Below the pieces are notes generated by a model. That model searched no databases, had not been told where the DNA came from, and saw only the letters and a program-made list of their open reading frames with translations. Positions 1 through 58,420 of a stretch of DNA of 58,420 nucleotides are shown one piece after another. This stretch comes from a virus, in IMG/VR virus record IMGVR_UViG_3300012936_000015, positions 1 to 58,420 of that record. One strand, written 5' to 3'. The number at the start of each line of letters is the position of its first letter. Positions within the stretch are counted from its first letter, which is position 1. The position numbers were made by a program, and so were the translations under genes.

Positions 1-20
1 CACACCACACCACACCAACC
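1..20. repeat. CACACC array, left end
   Basis: The window opens with a C/A-only strand made of CACAC and CACACC units. The same array, in the same orientation, fills the last 70 bases. Same orientation excludes inverted telomere-like ends and suggests one array cut by linearisation, or terminally redundant ends. Confidence 0.85.
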
Positions 21-22
21 AA

Positions 23-64
23 AGTAGGACAGCGACAGCAGGACACCGACAGCAGGACACCGAC
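23..64. repeat. Three 14-bp tandem repeats
   Basis: Unit AGCAGGACACCGAC occurs exactly at 37-50 and 51-64; a copy with two mismatches occupies 23-36. Short directly repeated units beside a low-complexity array and a hairpin cluster resemble iterons of a replication origin, but no function can be assigned from sequence alone. Confidence 0.8.
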
Positions 65-78
65 AAAAACACAGATTT

Positions 79-101
79 TAAATGTATCTTTAAAGAGACA
101 C
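79..101. repeat. 23-bp direct repeat, left copy
   Basis: It contains TGTATCTTTAAAGAGACA and matches 58329-58351 exactly over 23 bases. The core is a near-palindrome that recurs elsewhere in the window (2973, 10365, 35928, 56275). The two copies bracket the CACACC array if the molecule is circular. Confidence 0.85.
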
Positions 102-113
102 TTTCAATTATTT

Positions 114-268
114 GTGTTTCAGTTGGTTAAAACACGAATTTTAACAAAAAAGTTGAGCCGGTCTTCCTGATTGACAGACTGCGACTACCTCTGTTAGAGG
201 GGAAAACCTGCACACCAGAACGCCACGCCCTGCACGTAAGCGAGCTACGTCACGCAAGCCACTTGCGT
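114..268. other. Cluster of four local hairpins, noncoding
   Basis: Stems seen: GTGTTT/AAACAC (114-135), CCTCT/AGAGG with loop GTT (188-200), ACGTA/TACGT (234-250) and ACGCAAG/CTTGCGT with loop CCA (252-268). The stretch from about 150 to 275 is richer in G+C than its surroundings and has no convincing ORF. It could be a structured RNA or a hairpin-rich origin; no known RNA family or tRNA is recognised. Confidence 0.5.
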
Positions 269-286
269 AAGCCATAGGAAAATAAA

Positions 287-318
287 TTTGGTGGTTATAT
301 ATATATATATTATATTTG
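287..318 (+). promoter_or_regulatory. Bacteroidota-type promoter P1
   Basis: TTTG (287-290), a 20-nt spacer, then TATATTTG (311-318): an exact match to the Bacteroidota -33/-7 form TTTG-N19/21-TAnnTTTG. The spacer is an alternating AT tract. Transcription would begin near 323 and run into the structured stretch at 340-403. Confidence 0.7.
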
Positions 319-339
319 CTTTGAAGTATTCATAATGAG

Positions 340-403
340 AAAAGGGCAAGACCAAGGACAAGGGGTTACGAGGTTGAGTCCTTTTCTTTTTTCTACCCCT
401 TTT
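340..403 (+). ncRNA. Candidate small RNA or attenuator between P1 and P2
   Basis: Downstream of P1 there are two purine-rich arms, AAAAGG (340-345) and AAGGGG (360-365), and two pyrimidine-rich arms, CCTTTT (380-385) and CCCCTT (396-401), with a U-rich run at 382-392. The arms can pair in more than one way, so this could be a short terminated RNA or an attenuator before gene 498-1658. A 25-codon ORF (335-412) also fits but looks unlike a protein. Confidence 0.4.
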
Positions 404-404
404 A

Positions 405-436
405 TTTGGTAATGTCTAAATTTTGTCTTATATTTG
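405..436 (+). promoter_or_regulatory. Bacteroidota-type promoter P2
   Basis: TTTG (405-408), 20 nt, TATATTTG (429-436). The stretch around the -7 box is repeated at the promoter before 2319, so the two are copies or under the same constraint. It drives gene 498-1658; the predicted start near 441 gives a leader of about 57 nt. Confidence 0.75.
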
Positions 437-456
437 TTTATTATTAACCGAGTTCT

Positions 457-475
457 ACCTCTCATTTATAGAGGT
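457..475 (+). promoter_or_regulatory. Leader hairpin before the amidotransferase gene
   Basis: ACCTCT (457-462) and AGAGGT (470-475) form a 6-bp stem with a 7-nt loop in the 5' leader. The leader of the 56618 gene has a comparable 5-bp hairpin with a 7-nt loop, so the two + strand units share a leader architecture. Confidence 0.45.
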
Positions 476-497
476 TGCTCACTAAAATTTATAAACT

Positions 498-1658
498 ATG
501 TGTGTTATAATAGTCAAGCAAAGCAAAGACAAAAAAGTTTCGCGAGGAGTTCTTAAAACCTCAAGCAAAGTAAATCCTCACGGATTGGGGGTTGTGTGGT
601 TAGATACATTTGAAGTATCTTATCATAAATCAAAAGATTACAAAGTATTAGATGTTAACAGACCTTATATTGCTCACTTTCGTTATGCGACAGTAGGTAA
701 GGTCAATCGTGCAAATACACACCCTTTCGTGTGTGGTAATAATGCAGATGAGTTGCTTATGATGAATGGGAGTATCTATTCATTAGGCGACCAACAAACG
801 TGTGACACTAAAGTTCTTGCTAATCAATTAGGCGACAAGCCAAGACAAATGTGGAAACAAGAGTTATCAAAATACGATTGTAGATTTACCACAATCAATA
901 CCCGTACGCGTACCTTTCAAATATATAATAAGGAGTTATGGACAAGAAAGAATGGGGTTTGGTTCAGTAAGGACAATGTGTTATTGGACAACGTGGTTGC
1001 AGTATATGGTACACTAAAAAAAGGTTACTCAAACTATCATCATTATTTAAGAAGTTCAAAGTATGTAGGTGGTGGAGTAACACAAGACAAGTATCCTCTA
1101 TTGATTGAGGGATTGCCTTATATGGTAAATAAAAAGGGGGTAGGTCATAACGTAGAGGTGGATGTATTCAAAGTATCCAACACCAAACTTGCAGACTTAG
1201 ACACCTTAGAGGGACACCCTCGTTGGTACAAGAGGGAGATAATACCCATTAAGCTAAAGAGTGGTAAGGTTATTGATTGTTGGTTGTACTTTAATGACAA
1301 ACATATTGGTAAGCATACCCAAATGCACAAGACCTACACTCAGTCGTTCTTTGGTTACAACAGACCAACGTGGAGTAACAAGTGGAATAACTATGGATTA
1401 AGTAAAAGAAAAGCACAAGTGCCCTCGTACGAACCAAAAGAGTTCGATTGGTCTCAGTCCACGTTTGACTTTGACAATGATTTGAAGGTAGACACCTTTC
1501 GCGAGGACGAAATTTTACGCGAAGAGGATTTGTACGATAGAAAACCATTCTGTGTAAATTGTTATAGCGATTTAGACTTTGACGGATTTTCAAACTATCA
1601 TTGTTCCGGTTGCGATAGTTGGTTCACGGAGAACGAAGTGTTAACAGACAATATATAA
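498..1658 (+). CDS. Class II glutamine amidotransferase - gamma-glutamylcyclotransferase-like - zinc ribbon fusion
   Basis: Three domains are visible in 386 residues. The start MCVIIV places Cys2 as the Ntn-type nucleophile of a class II amidotransferase; HFRYAT (about 59-65), THPF (about 74) and NG (about 90) are the substrate and oxyanion motifs. A GGCT/AIG2-like domain follows, with VYGTLKKG near 168 and LDTLEGHP near 234, which includes the conserved acidic residue. The C terminus has two CxxC pairs at about 351-372, a zinc ribbon. Known: the first fold releases ammonia from Gln or acts on gamma-glutamyl bonds, the second cyclises or removes gamma-glutamyl groups. Inferred: partner of the amidoligase at 57279-58274, just upstream on a circular map. 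Regulated by P2 and its leader hairpin. Confidence 0.85.
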   Translation: MCVIIVKQSKDKKVSRGVLKTSSKVNPHGLGVVWLDTFEVSYHKSKDYKVLDVNRPYIAHFRYATVGKVNRANTHPFVCGNNADELLMMNGSIYSLGDQQTCDTKVLANQLGDKPRQMWKQELSKYDCRFTTINTRTRTFQIYNKELWTRKNGVWFSKDNVLLDNVVAVYGTLKKGYSNYHHYLRSSKYVGGGVTQDKYPLLIEGLPYMVNKKGVGHNVEVDVFKVSNTKLADLDTLEGHPRWYKREIIPIKLKSGKVIDCWLYFNDKHIGKHTQMHKTYTQSFFGYNRPTWSNKWNNYGLSKRKAQVPSYEPKEFDWSQSTFDFDNDLKVDTFREDEILREEDLYDRKPFCVNCYSDLDFDGFSNYHCSGCDSWFTENEVLTDNI

Positions 1659-41928: not shown

Positions 41929-44171
41929 TGTATTATTTCACTCCTTAATCCACGGTTATTATACCTTGCAAAGTTAATACTTATTTTTGATTGTTTTTTG
42001 TTTGATGCGTATAGATGCTTCTGATTTGCCATAATCGCCAAGCCTGAACTAATAGTAGCATCATAATCAGTTCGATTATTTATATCAAATTTAGCCCAAT
42101 CTTCTAATGTTCTTATAAAAGGCATACTGCCCATAATGTCACTTTCTCTATAGGTTTCTGTTAAATCTAAACCTACATATTTTTCTACATAAGACTCTAT
42201 AGCTGCGGCATGAGCTTGCTTTACATCTTCAGAACTATTAGGTATACCACCTAGTTCCTTTTCTGTTTTAGAAAGTTTTAACAATGGTTTATCAGGTCTG
42301 TTTATTGAAAACCCTCTATATCCTCTGTTTTTTAAATGATACAATAATCTTGGCTTATTGTTTTCTACTAAAATAGGCATACCGTAAAAAACACAAGCCA
42401 TTAAAACTTCTTCAAAAAATATTTCTGCTGTTTGAGGTCTTGCAATGTATTCTAAAAAAAACTCATTGCTAGGTATTTCATCCATATTAAATTTGGTCAA
42501 CCCATGTAATGCACCATTAGAACCTTTACCACCAACTGTTCCTGATATATCATAAGAGTCACAACCAAAAGAACCTAAGTGCTCGTTGCCTGGATACTTA
42601 ACACCCCTTCTTTCTACTACATTATTTTGCATTTGTTTTGGTAGCAACCAACTTATTAAAAACCTTCCTCTACTATTTGGAGTCCATATAACATTACTAT
42701 CCTTAATTCCATTTGCCCAACTAAAACTACCCCTAGTCAAATGGTGTTCTTTAATTAAAGAATCATTATAATCTATTTGTTGATATATTTTAGTTAAATT
42801 AAAAAGAGAAGACTTGCTTTCATCTCTAAATGCGTGAGACTCTGTTCTAGGAAACTGTCTATAAAACTCATTCAAAGCATCGGCATCTGATTTTAACGAA
42901 TCCACTTCTGCTTTCCAATAATCTATAGCTCCTTGATATATATACTCCCCATCTACACCCTCTACTTCTTTTTTAGGATTATAAAAAACAGGCATACCAT
43001 ATCTATCTATAAAACCCTCCATATTCCACTCCATGGGTATAAACAAAGAATACATTCCACTTTTTGTTTGACCATTTGCGTTTCTTGTATTTACATTAGA
43101 GTCTTCAAATAGTTTTTTAAAATTACCACCCCCTTTAGATAAAGCATTAGATGTAGAACCCATTAAACACTTCCCTATTATTTTACTACCTAATCTTAAA
43201 CATGTTTTAGTAACCCTCCAATTATTTAAAATGTTATTTGGCTTCACCCACTTACCACTTTCATCATGTACTAATAGCAATAATTTTTCCCCATCATAAG
43301 AGTTGTCGTCAGTATTCTTCCAATCTATTGTAGTGTCTAAGCCATACAGCTCTTCATTAGCCACATCATACATATTTTTTTTTGTAATCTTAGATGCAGG
43401 TATTCTAAAAGCTAATTCAGTTTTTGGTTTATCCATACCATCTTGAATAGGCTTGAAAAAAAATGGGAGTCTGCTAGAAATAGGAACTACTTTGTCAGTA
43501 AACATTTTTTTTGCATCAGAACCGGTTTTAGATAATATACCCACTCTTGAATCTTTTGCTAATGTTCCTACATTAATACATTCTGAAGAGCCCATATATG
43601 AAAAACCCGACCTTCTTATTTTTAAATAAGTCATGCCAAAGCATCTTTTGTCAGCTCTACAAGCCTCCCAAAACAAAAAGAAAATTCTATTTGCCTCTCT
43701 ATAATCAGGATAACCAACATCTATATTAGTCCATTGTAAATACATATAATGAGACCCTGTAATATAAGTGGGTTTGCCTTTATTCATAAACCAATAACCA
43801 TCCTCTCTTTTATCAAACTCATTCTCTATATAATCTACCCACCTACTTTTAAATTCTTTAGGAGCATCATTCCATTGAAATATAGAGTTTATCTTAGACA
43901 AAGATTTTGGCAATTCTTTTCTTTCCCAATATTGTTTAGTAGTATTATCATCTCTGCTATAACACTTCTTAGGAGCTTGAGGAAGTCCTATTATAAGTCC
44001 TGATATATTTATTATATCACCAACTCGACCCGTTTTAGAAATGTTTACAAAATCATATTTTTCATTATACCCATACCGCCAAGTTCCACCTCTATTTTTA
44101 TTGGACAAAACTCTTTTAGGTATGTAGTTATCTAAAACTTTATATAAACTATTTTGAACGTCTTTCTGCAA
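41925..44171 (-). CDS. Terminase large subunit (748 aa)
   Basis: ATPase: KIRRSGFSYMGSS (about 188) is a Walker A-like loop of the phage type, KLLLLVHDESG (about 294) is Walker B, and a coupling STSNAL motif follows. Nuclease: FGCDSYDIS (about 534) supplies the first Asp and LVENNKP (about 604) a ligand region of the RNase H-like fold. It packages DNA into the prohead. The only available start in frame is TTG at 44171, 23 nt inside the upstream gene, so the start is uncertain. A -7 box at 41969-41976 lies inside its 3' end. Confidence 0.85.
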   Translation of the reverse strand: MQKDVQNSLYKVLDNYIPKRVLSNKNRGGTWRYGYNEKYDFVNISKTGRVGDIINISGLIIGLPQAPKKCYSRDDNTTKQYWERKELPKSLSKINSIFQWNDAPKEFKSRWVDYIENEFDKREDGYWFMNKGKPTYITGSHYMYLQWTNIDVGYPDYREANRIFFLFWEACRADKRCFGMTYLKIRRSGFSYMGSSECINVGTLAKDSRVGILSKTGSDAKKMFTDKVVPISSRLPFFFKPIQDGMDKPKTELAFRIPASKITKKNMYDVANEELYGLDTTIDWKNTDDNSYDGEKLLLLVHDESGKWVKPNNILNNWRVTKTCLRLGSKIIGKCLMGSTSNALSKGGGNFKKLFEDSNVNTRNANGQTKSGMYSLFIPMEWNMEGFIDRYGMPVFYNPKKEVEGVDGEYIYQGAIDYWKAEVDSLKSDADALNEFYRQFPRTESHAFRDESKSSLFNLTKIYQQIDYNDSLIKEHHLTRGSFSWANGIKDSNVIWTPNSRGRFLISWLLPKQMQNNVVERRGVKYPGNEHLGSFGCDSYDISGTVGGKGSNGALHGLTKFNMDEIPSNEFFLEYIARPQTAEIFFEEVLMACVFYGMPILVENNKPRLLYHLKNRGYRGFSINRPDKPLLKLSKTEKELGGIPNSSEDVKQAHAAAIESYVEKYVGLDLTETYRESDIMGSMPFIRTLEDWAKFDINNRTDYDATISSGLAIMANQKHLYASNKKQSKISINFARYNNRGLRSEIIQ
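41969..41976 (-). promoter_or_regulatory. Late-arm -7 box before the portal gene
   Basis: Minus-strand TAACTTTG within the last codons of the terminase gene, about 41 nt from the portal ATG. Could give portal extra expression. No -33 TTTG seen. Confidence 0.35.
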
Positions 44172-44899: not shown

Positions 44900-45459
44900 A
44901 ATTTTATAGTTATTTGGTGGTCGTATATTCTGTACACCTTTTCATCATCTAACATAAACTCATACTCTACATTAGGAACAAACGAAACTATGTCACCATT
45001 GTTTACACCCTTGCTTTTTAAATAATCATTAGCATATAACATTTCCCCCATCAAAGGCTCGTTAGAAGTATTTTTAAAAATTATACTTTCTTTTTTTTGA
45101 ATAGGCTTGACAAAGCAGTATCTATCATAAGTATTCCATCCACTTTTATTTTTAAATAAAAAAAACTGCTCATTATCTACTAAAAAATAATCATCTTTTA
45201 AAAAGCTTTTACCACTTTTTTGTTTACCACCTATGTCATAATAATATTTAAAAACATTATGATGAACTAACAAAACATCCCCTTTCTTAATATCTCCATT
45301 GTAATTTATTGGAGTTTCTATTACTTCAGCTTCTCTATTTGAAAAACTTGCATCCTCTTGAGATGTGCTAATTATAATGTCTTTACCTCCTATATTTTTA
45401 GTGTTATTGTATCTTTTTTTATTTACAGGAGATACTATAAACTGTGTGGGGGACCTCAT
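44896..45459 (-). CDS. Possible GroES-fold protein or virion protein (187 aa)
   Basis: INYNGDIKKGDVLLVHHNVF followed by a DIGGKQ turn, and VYRIYDHQITIKL at the end, resemble the beta-barrel pattern of co-chaperonin-like phage proteins (GDxVLV, and a final strand). No clear mobile loop. This could be a second GroES-like cofactor next to the true groES at 53637, but the evidence is only pattern. Overlaps neighbours by 1-4 nt. Confidence 0.4.
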   Translation of the reverse strand: MRSPTQFIVSPVNKKRYNNTKNIGGKDIIISTSQEDASFSNREAEVIETPINYNGDIKKGDVLLVHHNVFKYYYDIGGKQKSGKSFLKDDYFLVDNEQFFLFKNKSGWNTYDRYCFVKPIQKKESIIFKNTSNEPLMGEMLYANDYLKSKGVNNGDIVSFVPNVEYEFMLDDEKVYRIYDHQITIKL

Positions 45460-53236: not shown

Positions 53237-53671
53237 ATGAATTCGAATTACCTAAAGTATTGGAGAGTCATAAGATACTTCATAAAATCTAAGTATAAAC
53301 TTACACAAGCTGACTTAGACATTTTAATTTTTCTTTATGATGAGAGTTATTTTTCTAAAGACAAATTCAAAGAGTTTGACGAGCTGCTCAGTTGGAACAT
53401 AAATAGATTTGATAACTTACTCAGAGATGGGTGGATACAAGTATTTAGAAAATACGATGGTAAAAGAAAAGCTCTCTATACTTTATCTTATAAGTCAATA
53501 AGAATGATTAGTTCTATATATAAAAAATTAAGTGGGGAAGAGATACCCACTAGTCCTTCAGCCAATCCTATGTTTAAAAGAAAAGTTTCTTATAGCGACA
53601 AGGTTTATAGAAATATGATAATAGAAATGAACAGGATTATAAAACAACAACGACATTCATCTGACGAATAA
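53237..53671 (+). CDS. Winged-helix (MarR-like) regulator (144 aa)
   Basis: YKLTQADLDILIFLYDESYF, then FDNLLRDGWIQVFRKYDGKR and YTLSYKSIRMISSIYKKL give helix, recognition helix, wing and final dimer-like helix as in MarR-type DNA-binding proteins. It is the only + gene between the two late genes at its sides, so it may control the late promoter on the other strand. Its 3' end overlaps groES by 35 nt in convergent orientation. Confidence 0.7.
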   Translation: MNSNYLKYWRVIRYFIKSKYKLTQADLDILIFLYDESYFSKDKFKEFDELLSWNINRFDNLLRDGWIQVFRKYDGKRKALYTLSYKSIRMISSIYKKLSGEEIPTSPSANPMFKRKVSYSDKVYRNMIIEMNRIIKQQRHSSDE

Positions 53672-53894
53672 TAGCTACCACCTCATTGTTTAGTAACATG
53701 GTGTGTCCTGAGTTCTGGTCATAGTATATCTCGTCACCTTCCTTTATAATCTCAACATCTGTACCTACGTTTAACACTTTACCTTTTCTATATCTTAACT
53801 TAGACGTTTCTTCTCCTGAAAGTAAAAGGCCTGACTGCGTAGTTACTTCTTCATCTATTGGTTTTATTATAATATATGTTCCTATTGCTTGCAT
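53637..53894 (-). CDS. groES: Co-chaperonin GroES
   Basis: 85 residues with GTYIIIKPIDEE (first strand) and a mobile loop (EVTTQSGLLLSGEETSK, about 16-32) in which GLLL stands where host GroES has an IVL-type hydrophobic tripeptide, then GKVLNVGTDVEIIKEGDEIY. Caps the GroEL ring. It overlaps groEL by 13 nt and lies downstream of it, the reverse of the bacterial groES-groEL order. Its stop region overlaps the + regulator gene. Confidence 0.85.
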   Translation of the reverse strand: MQAIGTYIIIKPIDEEVTTQSGLLLSGEETSKLRYRKGKVLNVGTDVEIIKEGDEIYYDQNSGHTMLLNNEVVAIIRQMNVVVVL

Positions 53895-55504
53895 GTTGTA
53901 TCGTATGAACGTGCCATTGTAATAATAGCGTTAGTACTAAGTATGGTGTTTGCTACCGATATTGCGTTACTTAATGCACTTACAGTAACTTTAGTAGGGT
54001 CTATAACTCCTAAATCTATCATTTTACCCTTTTTTTCTGTTACTACATTATATCCTTCGCCTTTTCCAAGTTTAGATGATAGGTAAATATCTTCTATATT
54101 TAACCCTGCATTTTCAAGTATTTGTTTTAATGGAGACAATAAAGAGTCTAATAAAATTGCGTAAGCAATTTTTTCGGCATCAGATTTTCCACTTTTTAGT
54201 TCTGAAGAAATATTCATCAAGGCTACTCCACTACCTGGCAATATCCCGTCAGATAAAGCAGAACGAACCGCACAAACTGCATCATCTACCCTGTCATACA
54301 GTTCTTTTTGCTCTAAATCAGTATTACCTCCTACATGTATAACCCCTACACCTCCGGTCAATGAGGCTATACGTGATAGTATAAACTCTCTATCAGCTTT
54401 GGTCTTAGCTCTTTTGTGAGCATCTTTTAACTCAGACACTCTGCCCTCTAACTTTTCTTGATGCTCCTCATCTTTTGGTGAACAAAGGACGACAGTGGAG
54501 TCTCTCCCAACTATCACCTTGGACGCTCTCCCTAAATCGGAGAAGTTTACAATACTCAAGTCGTCCCCTGTTTTCTCAGAAAAATAAGTTGCACCTACTG
54601 ACATGGCTATGTCTTGCATTAACTCATGAGTTTTCCAACCAAATGAGGGTGGTGGTATAACACACACCTTCAATCCTCTTTTCATAACGTTAGCCGCTAA
54701 CGTATTAACAACATTAGCTGAACATGGAGCTATAATAAGTAGTTTTTTACCTTCTTGAATAATTGGTTTTAATATTCCTTCTATATTTAATACATTACTT
54801 ATCTCTGCATCAGACACAAGTATGTTAACATTTTCTAATATACACTCGTCTTTCTTTTGATTATTAACAAAAAGAGTGCTTGAATAACCCCTATCTATCT
54901 TTATTCCTTCAGTGGTTTCAGAATAAGTTTCTGAATTAGAAGACTTTTCCACTGTCACTATCCCGTTTTCTCCTACCACATTGTAAGTTTCAGATATTAT
55001 ATTTCCAACAAACTCATCATTGTTAGCAGAAATAGTAGCCACATGGTTAATAGTATTCTTGTCCACTTTGACACTATCTCTTTTTAACATCTCAATTATT
55101 TGAATAGTATATGAAGATAGTGCTCTAATAACTTCAGTAACACTAACATCAGGGTTCTTACCTAATAGTCTTGTAGTATTCTTAACTATAGACTCAGTTA
55201 AAACAATAGCCGTGGTTGTTCCGTCTCCGGCTAAAGTAGCTGTTCTTTCAGCAGCTTGTTTCATTATTCTAACTGCTAAGTTTTCAACAGGGTCAAGAAG
55301 CTCAACTGCTTTTGCAACTGTCACTCCGTCTTTGGTAACAGTAATGCTTGCCGTATGGTCTGGTGATTCTATAAGCACAGTATTGCCTCGCGGCCCTAAC
55401 GTGCTCTTTACTGCATTTGCAATTTTAGTAATTCCTTTGATTAATTTATCTCGACCTTCCGAACCGAAGTCAAGCTCCTTGGGGATGTATCCTGTATTAT
55501 TCAT
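53882..55504 (-). CDS. groEL: Phage-encoded chaperonin GroEL
   Basis: 540 residues, full length. TLGPRGNTV (about 35), TKDGVTVA (about 57), GDGTTTA (93-99, ATP binding) and GGVGVIHVGG...RVDDAVCAVRSAL (about 385-415, with the catalytic Asp near 405) are the family core. The C terminus ends TTCKQ and lacks the GGM repeats of host GroEL. Known phage GroELs are rare and fold capsid or other proteins. First gene of a two-gene unit, with a -7 box at 55532-55539. Confidence 0.93.
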   Translation of the reverse strand: MNNTGYIPKELDFGSEGRDKLIKGITKIANAVKSTLGPRGNTVLIESPDHTASITVTKDGVTVAKAVELLDPVENLAVRIMKQAAERTATLAGDGTTTAIVLTESIVKNTTRLLGKNPDVSVTEVIRALSSYTIQIIEMLKRDSVKVDKNTINHVATISANNDEFVGNIISETYNVVGENGIVTVEKSSNSETYSETTEGIKIDRGYSSTLFVNNQKKDECILENVNILVSDAEISNVLNIEGILKPIIQEGKKLLIIAPCSANVVNTLAANVMKRGLKVCVIPPPSFGWKTHELMQDIAMSVGATYFSEKTGDDLSIVNFSDLGRASKVIVGRDSTVVLCSPKDEEHQEKLEGRVSELKDAHKRAKTKADREFILSRIASLTGGVGVIHVGGNTDLEQKELYDRVDDAVCAVRSALSDGILPGSGVALMNISSELKSGKSDAEKIAYAILLDSLLSPLKQILENAGLNIEDIYLSSKLGKGEGYNVVTEKKGKMIDLGVIDPTKVTVSALSNAISVANTILSTNAIITMARSYDTTCKQ

Positions 55505-56617: not shown

Positions 56618-57247
56618 ATGAGAAATTTATTAGAGTTAGAGACTACAATCCTAACAGAAAATCAAACATTAAGAAACGGGTTCAGAGTTGAGGAAATCAA
56701 CGAGAATCTAAATCAAATTTTTGCCGGTGGACTATCTAAGTTCAATTCATCTGTAAAAATGGCGAAAGTAGTCAAGAAATCAATGGACTTTTTTAATTCT
56801 GAGGAGTGTCAAAATCAGTTAAATGAGGAGGGCATTTCGTGGACTAAGGAAGAGTTTTTTATGAAGTTATTTGGGTGGAAGAGGGCATTTGGTTACAAAA
56901 TGCTAAAACTTGCAGAGGTTCATCCGAGTACAATTAGAAGTTTTGTGAACAAAATGCAAACACTCAGAGATAATGGAGAAGACACCAAAGAGACCTCAAT
57001 AAGTGTTGAAAATTGTTTGAAGTTTGTTCGAGGTGGTGGAGAAGAAACCAACAACGAACCGACCACACCAAACCCAACCACTTTGCAAATGGTTTGCTTA
57101 ATAGACGGGATGAAGAAAAAAGTTGTAGTTAAATTAAACGGACAAATTAAGTGTGATTTAACAGATGAACAACTTGAGTTACAAATTGAAGTTTTAAAGC
57201 AAATTGTACTAAATAACCAAGCAGAACGCGAGGGGATGGGAAATTAA
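56618..57247 (+). CDS. Hypothetical protein upstream of the amidoligase (209 aa)
   Basis: ISWTKEEFFMKLFGWKRAFG followed by YKMLKLAEVHPSTIRSFVNK looks like a helical DNA-binding segment, then an Asn/Thr/Pro-rich linker (EETNNEPTTPNPTT) and a C-terminal part that ends in a helix with acidic/Leu repeats. No family is recognised. 31 nt before the amidoligase, so it may be its regulator or substrate. Overall acidic. Confidence 0.6.
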   Translation: MRNLLELETTILTENQTLRNGFRVEEINENLNQIFAGGLSKFNSSVKMAKVVKKSMDFFNSEECQNQLNEEGISWTKEEFFMKLFGWKRAFGYKMLKLAEVHPSTIRSFVNKMQTLRDNGEDTKETSISVENCLKFVRGGGEETNNEPTTPNPTTLQMVCLIDGMKKKVVVKLNGQIKCDLTDEQLELQIEVLKQIVLNNQAEREGMGN

Positions 57248-57278: not shown

Positions 57279-58274
57279 ATGAATAATTCAATCGGTATAA
57301 CATACCAAAACACAGGACTAACGAGCCGAGGAACTTTAAGAAGTTATCACTCGAGCCCGAGCCCTAACTTTATTAATAAAACCCCTTATAACGTTGATTT
57401 ACGTGGGTTAAAACCAACAGAGAAACGAAGACTGTTAACTTTTGAGGGTGGCGAATTTCACTCAAATTATGCAGTCGGCTTTGAAATTGAAAAGACCTAT
57501 TTCAACAGATTTGAAAACAACGATAGAGGTTCAAGAATCGGAGAACTTGCACTTTTTAAGGGGTTCGAACTTGATTCGAGTTGTGGAGTTGAAGCAATTA
57601 CCCACATTTTACCATTGCTTCCTCGAGGCTTATGGAGAAATAAGGTTTACAATATGTTTCACCAAGCTAAGCACATTTTAGAGGATGAATTTTCACCGAG
57701 TAATTCAGATTGTGGTGGACACATTACTTTATCTTGTAAGGGGTTAACGTCAACGGAGTTATTCGAAAAAGTAGCTAAATACTCAGGTCTAATTATGAGC
57801 CTTTACCGAATGAGGTTAACTAACCCTTATTGTAACCATAATATGACCTTTAGAACCTCTAACTATGATTGGATTAATGGGACACTGAGCCGAACCGGTC
57901 GCAGAAATACGCGTATTTCCTCATATAAGTACGCGTTCTGTAAATTGGGCACAAATGGAACGATTGAATTCAGAGTTCCCCCAAGAGTTACCGGAGTCAA
58001 GCAGTTAATGAAAAGATACGAATTATTTTATGAGTTGATTGATTGTGCCGTTAATGAGGTTGGTTGGTCTAAGTTTATGAACCGAGTTAAGCCGATTATA
58101 TTATCAATGTATCCGGACAATGAGAACAAAGCGAAGTTAATTCTTAGCCAAGCGAAGTATTTTCAAAGGTTCATTAATACTAACGGACTGAGAACCTCTG
58201 AAGTAACAGATATTTATATGGAGTGTAACACTCCAGAGAGACAAGAAAAGAGAAAAGAGTGGTTCAGATTGTGA
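57279..58274 (+). CDS. Amidoligase (Amidoligase_2/GS-fold COOH-NH2 ligase, 331 aa)
   Basis: YAVGFEIEK (about 65) is the G-x-E-x-E strand that binds metal-ATP; LDSSCGVEAITHILPL (about 97) matches D.S...E....PL; GGHITLSC (about 145) gives the G-x-H; and GTIEFRVPPRVTG (about 227) is the E-F-R motif. Together these identify the glutamine-synthetase-like amidoligase family, which joins a carboxylate to an amine using ATP. No substrate can be deduced. Inferred partner of the GATase-GGCT fusion at 498. Ends before a strong terminator at 58300. Confidence 0.8.
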   Translation: MNNSIGITYQNTGLTSRGTLRSYHSSPSPNFINKTPYNVDLRGLKPTEKRRLLTFEGGEFHSNYAVGFEIEKTYFNRFENNDRGSRIGELALFKGFELDSSCGVEAITHILPLLPRGLWRNKVYNMFHQAKHILEDEFSPSNSDCGGHITLSCKGLTSTELFEKVAKYSGLIMSLYRMRLTNPYCNHNMTFRTSNYDWINGTLSRTGRRNTRISSYKYAFCKLGTNGTIEFRVPPRVTGVKQLMKRYELFYELIDCAVNEVGWSKFMNRVKPIILSMYPDNENKAKLILSQAKYFQRFINTNGLRTSEVTDIYMECNTPERQEKRKEWFRL

Positions 58275-58299
58275 ATCACTTTTTTAATTCTTTTAAATG

Positions 58300-58325
58300 G
58301 GGGGACTTTGTCCCCCTTTTTTTTT
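58300..58325 (+). terminator. GGGGGAC/GTCCCCC terminator after the amidoligase
   Basis: GGGGGAC (58300-58306), loop TTT, GTCCCCC (58310-58316), then nine T residues. Strong intrinsic terminator with the same arms as those at 2996 and 34728. Confidence 0.88.
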
Positions 58326-58328
58326 GGC

Positions 58329-58351
58329 TAAATGTATCTTTAAAGAGACAC
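58329..58351. repeat. 23-bp direct repeat, right copy
   Basis: Exact match to 79-101, including TGTATCTTTAAAGAGACA. It sits between the last terminator and the CACACC array. Confidence 0.85.
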
Positions 58352-58420
58352 CACACACCACACCACACCACACACCACACCACACACCACACACCACACC
58401 AAACACCACACCACACACAC
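58352..58420. repeat. CACACC array, right end
   Basis: About 70 bases made of ACACC and ACACACC units on one strand, with a single CAAAC interruption. Same orientation as at 1-20, so the array is probably continuous across the ends. Its length may be shortened or expanded by assembly. Confidence 0.85.

Follow-up and report, generated by a model that had tools for sequence, protein, structure and literature searches.

The window analysed here, a 58,420-base stretch that is the complete virus record IMGVR_UViG_3300012936_000015, originates from a marine bacterial virus and encodes a divergent amidoligase and a three-part fusion protein, neighbours across the joined ends of the record. We read this pair, with somewhat better than even confidence, as a gamma-glutamyl amide writer/eraser module, carried by a tailed phage whose hosts are probably Bacteroidota. 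Remodelling of host peptides by phage amidoligase cassettes has been predicted for years, and the available portions of PMC5498523 and PMC10945688 demonstrate no target. The compact two-protein form occurs in hundreds of viral contigs, most of them unstudied, and is the smallest among the systems compared, thus representing one of the easiest cassettes to test, and the leader RNA and ribozyme-bounded genes of its relatives open the regulation of the module to testing as well.

Amidoligase and fusion protein

The two genes and the domains assigned to them are as follows.

57279 to 58274, plus strand: divergent GS/GCS-fold amidoligase, 331 aa (motifs, AlphaFold model, hhalign)
498 to 1658, plus strand: fusion of a class-II glutamine amidotransferase (GAT-II), a gamma-glutamylamine cyclotransferase (GGACT) and a zinc ribbon, 386 aa (PF06094, structure, 26 aligned homologues)
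498 to 989, plus strand: GAT-II (Ntn) domain, residues 1-164, Cys2 as nucleophile (invariant residues, EgtC/GlmS fold)
987 to 1352, plus strand: GGACT/AIG2 domain, residues 164-285, catalytic Glu238 (PF06094)
1551 to 1613, plus strand: C-terminal CxxC...CxxC zinc-ribbon-like motif, C352, C355, C369 and C372 (conserved cysteines)

The amidoligase frame is open from ATG to TGA, and all motifs named in the sequence-only reading were located, with GFEIEK at residues 67-72, D99-S101-E105 followed by P112-L113, GGHITL at 146-151 and TIEFR at 228-232. Alignment of the window protein with 22 relatives (23 sequences, identity down to about 33%) revealed that G67, E69, E71, E97, D99, S101, E105, H148, E230 and R232 are invariant. 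The suggested search with the Amidoligase_2 profile was negative: hmmscan with PF12224 (cut-off 22 bits) matched neither the window protein nor any of the 22 relatives at E<=1. A PF12224 search of the window's record found none either, but its controls were blank too, which makes that search uninformative by itself. Scans of Pfam and PHROG, using single sequences and per member, yielded only weak matches to 'amidoligase enzyme' families (phrog_7469, 0.0041; phrog_2443, 0.029), a sequence-profile search of solved structures recovered no amidoligase, and BLASTP against the PaP3 amidoligase gave nothing significant. Profile-profile comparison by hhalign with phage amidoligases that do pass PF12224 (set A5: C75C1, Bacillus, Porphyromonas and Arthrobacter phage proteins) however produced a match of 95% (E 2.5e-8) in which GFEIEK, the HIxx motif and IEFR line up, compared to 0.2% for an unrelated control. 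The AlphaFold model (pTM 0.85) resembles GS and YbdK/GCS; all 50 structural matches listed are of GS or GCS type, the best being YbdK with Z 9.0 over 199 residues. Based on the invariant residues, the profile-profile match and the predicted fold, the product is assigned as a putative GS-fold amidoligase in the broad sense, divergent and outside PF12224 by the Pfam criterion. The proposed identity is thus upheld by fold, motifs and profile-profile match, but not by direct matching of the family profile.

The fusion had been anticipated as a GATase/GGCT protein, and is present as such, although more precisely as GAT-II, GGACT and zinc ribbon. Residues C2, R62, G67, H75, N90-G91 and D103 are invariant in the 26 aligned homologues, and the best structural matches of the GAT-II domain are EgtC (Z 11.8) and the GlmS glutaminase (Z 11.7). 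The expected family profiles were recovered for one half only: GGACT lies well over the PF06094 cut-off (2.7e-21, 76.8 bits versus 22.8), whereas GAT-II stays below those of PF13522 (20.1 bits versus 27; 6.7e-4) and PF13230 (18.6 versus 23). The predicted structures of both proteins, each modelled alone, agree with the assignments, the GGACT domain matching the human and mouse enzymes with Z 17. It carries the YGTL motif at 170-173, and E238 corresponds in the alignment to the catalytic-site residue E82 of human GGACT, which is mutated in structure 3jud; structure 3juc represents GGACT complexed with 5-oxoproline. The GGACT domain is connected to the zinc-ribbon-like motif by a linker (residues 283-347) that was modelled with low confidence (pLDDT <50), and the cysteines of the motif are invariant or nearly so in alignment A4 and missing from the distant C75C1 homologue. 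Unlike GGCT, GGACT acts on gamma-glutamyl-amines, which points towards isopeptide or gamma-glutamyl-amine chemistry of the fusion.

Genome junction and gene order

The surroundings of the pair comprise a conserved gene and an intergenic region that is split by the ends of the record.

56618 to 57247, plus strand: conserved upstream gene, 209 aa, ending 31 nt before the amidoligase (tblastn matches in 91 loci)
58275 to 58420, plus strand: left half of the intergenic stretch that spans the junction, with a CACACC-rich tract (aligns inside relatives' contigs)
1 to 497, plus strand: right half of the same intergenic stretch, up to the fusion gene (aligns inside relatives' contigs)

An exact terminal repeat of at least 10 nt is absent from the window ends, and a low-complexity CACACC tract is present at both. 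When the ends are joined, the sequence aligns continuously over 1551 nt, at 85.7% identity, with the contig of L003, a close relative, and in L003/L008 the junction stretch sits mid-contig (59 kb), again with a CACACC-like tract. Since this close relative aligns through the junction, we conclude that the ends join and that the adjacency of the genes is real; the assembly of the window probably broke within the CACACC tract. The distance from the amidoligase stop to the fusion ATG is 643 bp on one strand, in good agreement with the roughly 640 bp suggested earlier. A GC-rich structure at 140-300 of the junction was considered and discarded as unconvincing (z -1.67).

Some further features of the window were recorded. 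A palindromic TGTCTCTTTAAAGAGACA-like repeat occurs at 83, 2971, 10364, 35928, 56274 and 58333, with nine matches when both strands are counted versus 0.04 expected. Phage-encoded GroES and GroEL are located at 53637-55504 on the minus strand (phrog_5725, 4.2e-129; phrog_3188, 6e-13), and GroEL relatives are present in 92 fetched loci. The 209-aa upstream gene gave nothing over cut-off in the Pfam/PHROG scan.

Conserved linkage in related phages, the other expectation for the pair, was surveyed in 80 viral contigs collected by the amidoligase profile, 61 of which extend at least 4 kb downstream. The fusion follows the amidoligase on the same strand in 60 of these 61, and in the remaining contig (L062, which is that of L027) it lies 4.9 kb from the amidoligase. 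The two genes are separated by as little as 79 bp or as much as several kb, and the intervening genes differ among relatives; hence gene order and strand are kept despite turnover of the genes between the pair. A third conserved partner in the gap was sought and rejected, small gap families reaching up to 37 loci and none being present in the window. These small conserved proteins (for example 53 aa, MESQHYFKVYYG...) occupy up to 37 of 74 gaps, including those of L013, L014 and L015. Outside phages, a plasmid search found separate GGCT proteins only, and the bacterial genomes with the fusion amount to two contigs, labelled Cytophagales and Flavobacteriales.

Transcription signals, leader hairpin and hammerhead ribozymes

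Three signals flank the genes in the window.

58299 to 58325, plus strand: intrinsic terminator 3' of the amidoligase (GGGGGGACTTTGTCCCCC followed by a T run)
405 to 436, plus strand: Bacteroidota-type promoter (TTTG...TAnnTTTG) of the fusion gene (pattern and conservation)
450 to 480, plus strand: conserved RNA hairpin in the 5' leader of the fusion gene (covariation)

The amidoligase starts 31 nt past the upstream 209-aa gene and is followed by the terminator, which is also found in L003, L004 and L011. As the terminator separates the amidoligase from the fusion, the pair probably does not form one transcript in the window. The promoter pattern has six matches versus 3.7 expected and is thus not above chance by itself, whereas L003, L009, L010 and L012 retain both the site at 405-436 and its spacer. 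The promoter type, together with the two Bacteroidota-labelled contigs carrying the fusion, suggests a Bacteroidota host.

The leader hairpin follows the pattern GRGU-UCU-6bp-loop-6bp-U-RCYC in the window and about 40 relatives. Two-sided changes were detected in eight of nine pairs, with all cells pairing, in alignment A7 (20 sequences), and in 10 of 10 pairs in a set of 20 further leaders found by the model (A9), all of which are placed 6-11 nt upstream of the fusion start; the model matches the window with E 4.3e-15. No Rfam family matches the hairpin, which is a candidate new cis-regulatory RNA. Similar leaders and promoters had been proposed for the two genes, and in relatives L015, L020, L026 and L027 a hairpin leader indeed precedes both; in the window, however, only the fusion has a Bacteroidota-type promoter and hairpin leader, and the proposal fails there.

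Many relatives carry hammerhead ribozymes near the pair. Matches to Rfam RF00008 were obtained in 17 of 24 relative records, nearly all under the gathering score, while a structure-based scan detected 72 hammerheads in 124 loci (some of these loci overlap in a shared contig), with 71 in the coding orientation, and none in shuffled sequence. They are of types I and III (L010, L012, L025, L069, L075 and others) and typically found 25-60 nt past the stop codon of the amidoligase, downstream of the fusion or upstream of the amidoligase. Within 130 nt past the amidoligase stop of 84 distinct relatives, 63 have a hammerhead core, five including the window have a terminator and none has both, compared to 11 core patterns in 375 random stretches. 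The window's clade displays a terminator in place of the hammerhead after the amidoligase, and the window itself has no hammerhead. Clustered hammerheads bordering phage genes are already known (available part of PMC3088659); a steady association with the amidoligase-fusion pair is not described in that part. Hammerheads inside the PaP3 cassette were also considered and rejected. Two hammerhead-like cores of PaP3 (L124) lie at 44076-44106 and 45422-45444 on the minus strand, at the other end of the early region and outside the amidoligase cassette.

An elaborated reading, in which the eraser gene of a widespread gamma-glutamyl isopeptide writer/eraser of phages is placed under a dedicated 5'-leader RNA and the mRNA ends are cut by hammerheads in most relatives, appears improbable to us as a whole; within it, the leader RNA would perhaps sense the pathway product.

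Possible roles and comparison with known systems

Aggregated, the amidoligase, the fusion, their adjacency and their linkage stand as originally proposed, while the PF12224 match and the leaders and promoters shared within the window do not. In the reading that we prefer, a gamma-glutamyl amide writer/eraser, the amidoligase would use ATP to activate a carboxylate via an acyl phosphate, as in GS/GCS enzymes, and then join it to an amine, with a presumed gamma-glutamyl specificity. Acting jointly with the ligase, the fusion would reverse or feed this chemistry through two active sites: the Cys2 Ntn amidotransferase domain may take glutamine or a gamma-glutamyl amide and release ammonia or a free amine, and the GGACT domain may convert a gamma-glutamyl-amine (isopeptide) to 5-oxoproline and amine. 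Encoded beside replication genes, the module would act early in infection and exchange gamma-glutamyl or amide linkages of a host molecule, the most plausible target being envelope or peptidoglycan stem peptides.

One specific substrate for this general scheme is held as a tentative possibility, namely a rewiring of peptidoglycan side chains that would keep competing phages or lysins from recognising the wall and result in superinfection exclusion. Amidoligase-type ligases act on carboxylate/amine pairs like those in stem peptides, and from this knowledge of the family the ligase type is suitable. The same role has already been hypothesised for homologous RIO-1, phiEco32 and LUZ24-like cassettes (PMC5498523, available part; PMC11945000), yet experimental proof was not found in the available parts of these two sources. 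Moreover, no signal peptide is obvious by eye in either enzyme, implying that they would have to act on cytoplasmic precursors, and the window module is devoid of the two other cassette ligases. Rather unlikely, in our estimation, is a role in small-molecule or nitrogen metabolism, with a gamma-glutamyl protecting-group or nitrogen-salvage cycle similar to EgtA/EgtC or the gamma-glutamyl cycle, where the ligase adds Glu to an amine and GAT-II or GGACT takes it off. This would be congruent with the equal structural proximity of GAT-II to EgtC and GlmS, with gamma-glutamyl-amines being GGACT substrates (as hinted by the 5-oxoproline in 3juc) and with the growth effect ascribed to similar genes of a Planctomycetes phage, although the available text of PMC10945688 does not assign that effect to single genes. 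Furthermore, no metabolic partner gene was found beside the pair.

It is quite improbable that the pair attaches peptides or glutamate as tags to DNA bases or to a protein of the phage or its host. Such a role is modelled on the amidoligase systems reportedly surveyed by Iyer and colleagues (2009), and would make use of the GGACT domain as what family knowledge depicts as a natural eraser of Glu-lysine isopeptides, and of the zinc ribbon, which could bind a macromolecule. However, no conserved tag peptide was found beside the pair in the window, the gap frames differ among relatives, and no base-modification gene was seen among the scanned window proteins; DNA or capsid tagging receives no specific support in this analysis. 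Least probable is that two unrelated auxiliary genes are neighbours merely through a gene order common to close phages. The variable spacing and the varied genes in between would fit, but the constancy of order and strand in 60 of 61 loci despite such turnover speaks against it, as does the fact that the same activities adjoin in distant phages. By analogy with the published phage cassettes (available part of PMC5498523), a cell-wall or gamma-glutamyl-metabolite role is favoured for the writer/eraser module.

The individual phage domains have folds and catalytic residues in common with YbdK/GCS and glutamine synthetases, with EgtC and the GlmS glutaminase, and with human GGACT, at identities of only about 10-30%. 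Both protein families are shared with the published circular genome of Podoviridae sp. ctfjg026 (MW202828.1; 35% and 45% identity), where the pair is 58 bp apart with chaperonin genes upstream, and the amidoligase frame (L001 9308-11032) is extended by ~230 aa at its N-terminus, with a second, partial match to the amidoligase profile in the added part. Phage C75C1 (CDS20/CDS25) encodes a GAT-II-GGACT fusion that shares 40% identity with that of the window across 265 residues and is preceded on its strand, at 0.85 kb, by an amidoligase gene; this amidoligase is however a plain PF12224 member (3.5e-30), the zinc ribbon is lacking and the intervening genes are others. In Arthrobacter phage Salgado, genes 97-99 (GGACT, PF12224 amidoligase and GATase_6) provide the same three activities consecutively on one strand, but as three separate genes with a canonical PF12224 ligase and a canonical GATase_6. 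They are the expected unfused counterpart of the window pair.

The larger cassettes of phiEco32/LUZ24/RIO-1-like podoviruses (PaP3 orf42-48; MW202615; Pseudoalteromonas phage Slicky01) likewise combine a GS-fold amidoligase, a class-II GAT and GGACT, encoded together and adjoining replication genes as in the window. They have been proposed to generate unusual linkages in peptidoglycan side chains and to protect against superinfection (PMC5498523), and similar genes of a Planctomycetes phage have been credited with nitrogen, amino-acid and growth effects (PMC10945688); the available portions of the two reports do not demonstrate the chemistry. Amidoligase, GAT and GGACT, which jointly characterise the phiEco32/LUZ24 type, are all found in the window. 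The full cassette of PaP3, MW202615 and Slicky01 nevertheless comprises two amidoligase types, ATP-grasp, GAT and GGACT, while in the window GAT and GGACT are fused with a zinc ribbon, the ligase is too divergent for PF12224, and the ATP-grasp and COOH-NH2 ligase are missing. Phmmer with three cassette ATP-grasp proteins, which match each other at ~1e-20 or better, gave no match in the window, no RimK-type ATP-grasp was found in 20 relatives, and the COOH-NH2 ligase had neither a PF14395 match in the window's record nor a phmmer match. As these two ligases are absent, the pathway proposed for the larger cassettes cannot be transferred to the window pair in full. The pair is, then, a slimmed-down variant of a known phage cassette rather than a new kind of system.
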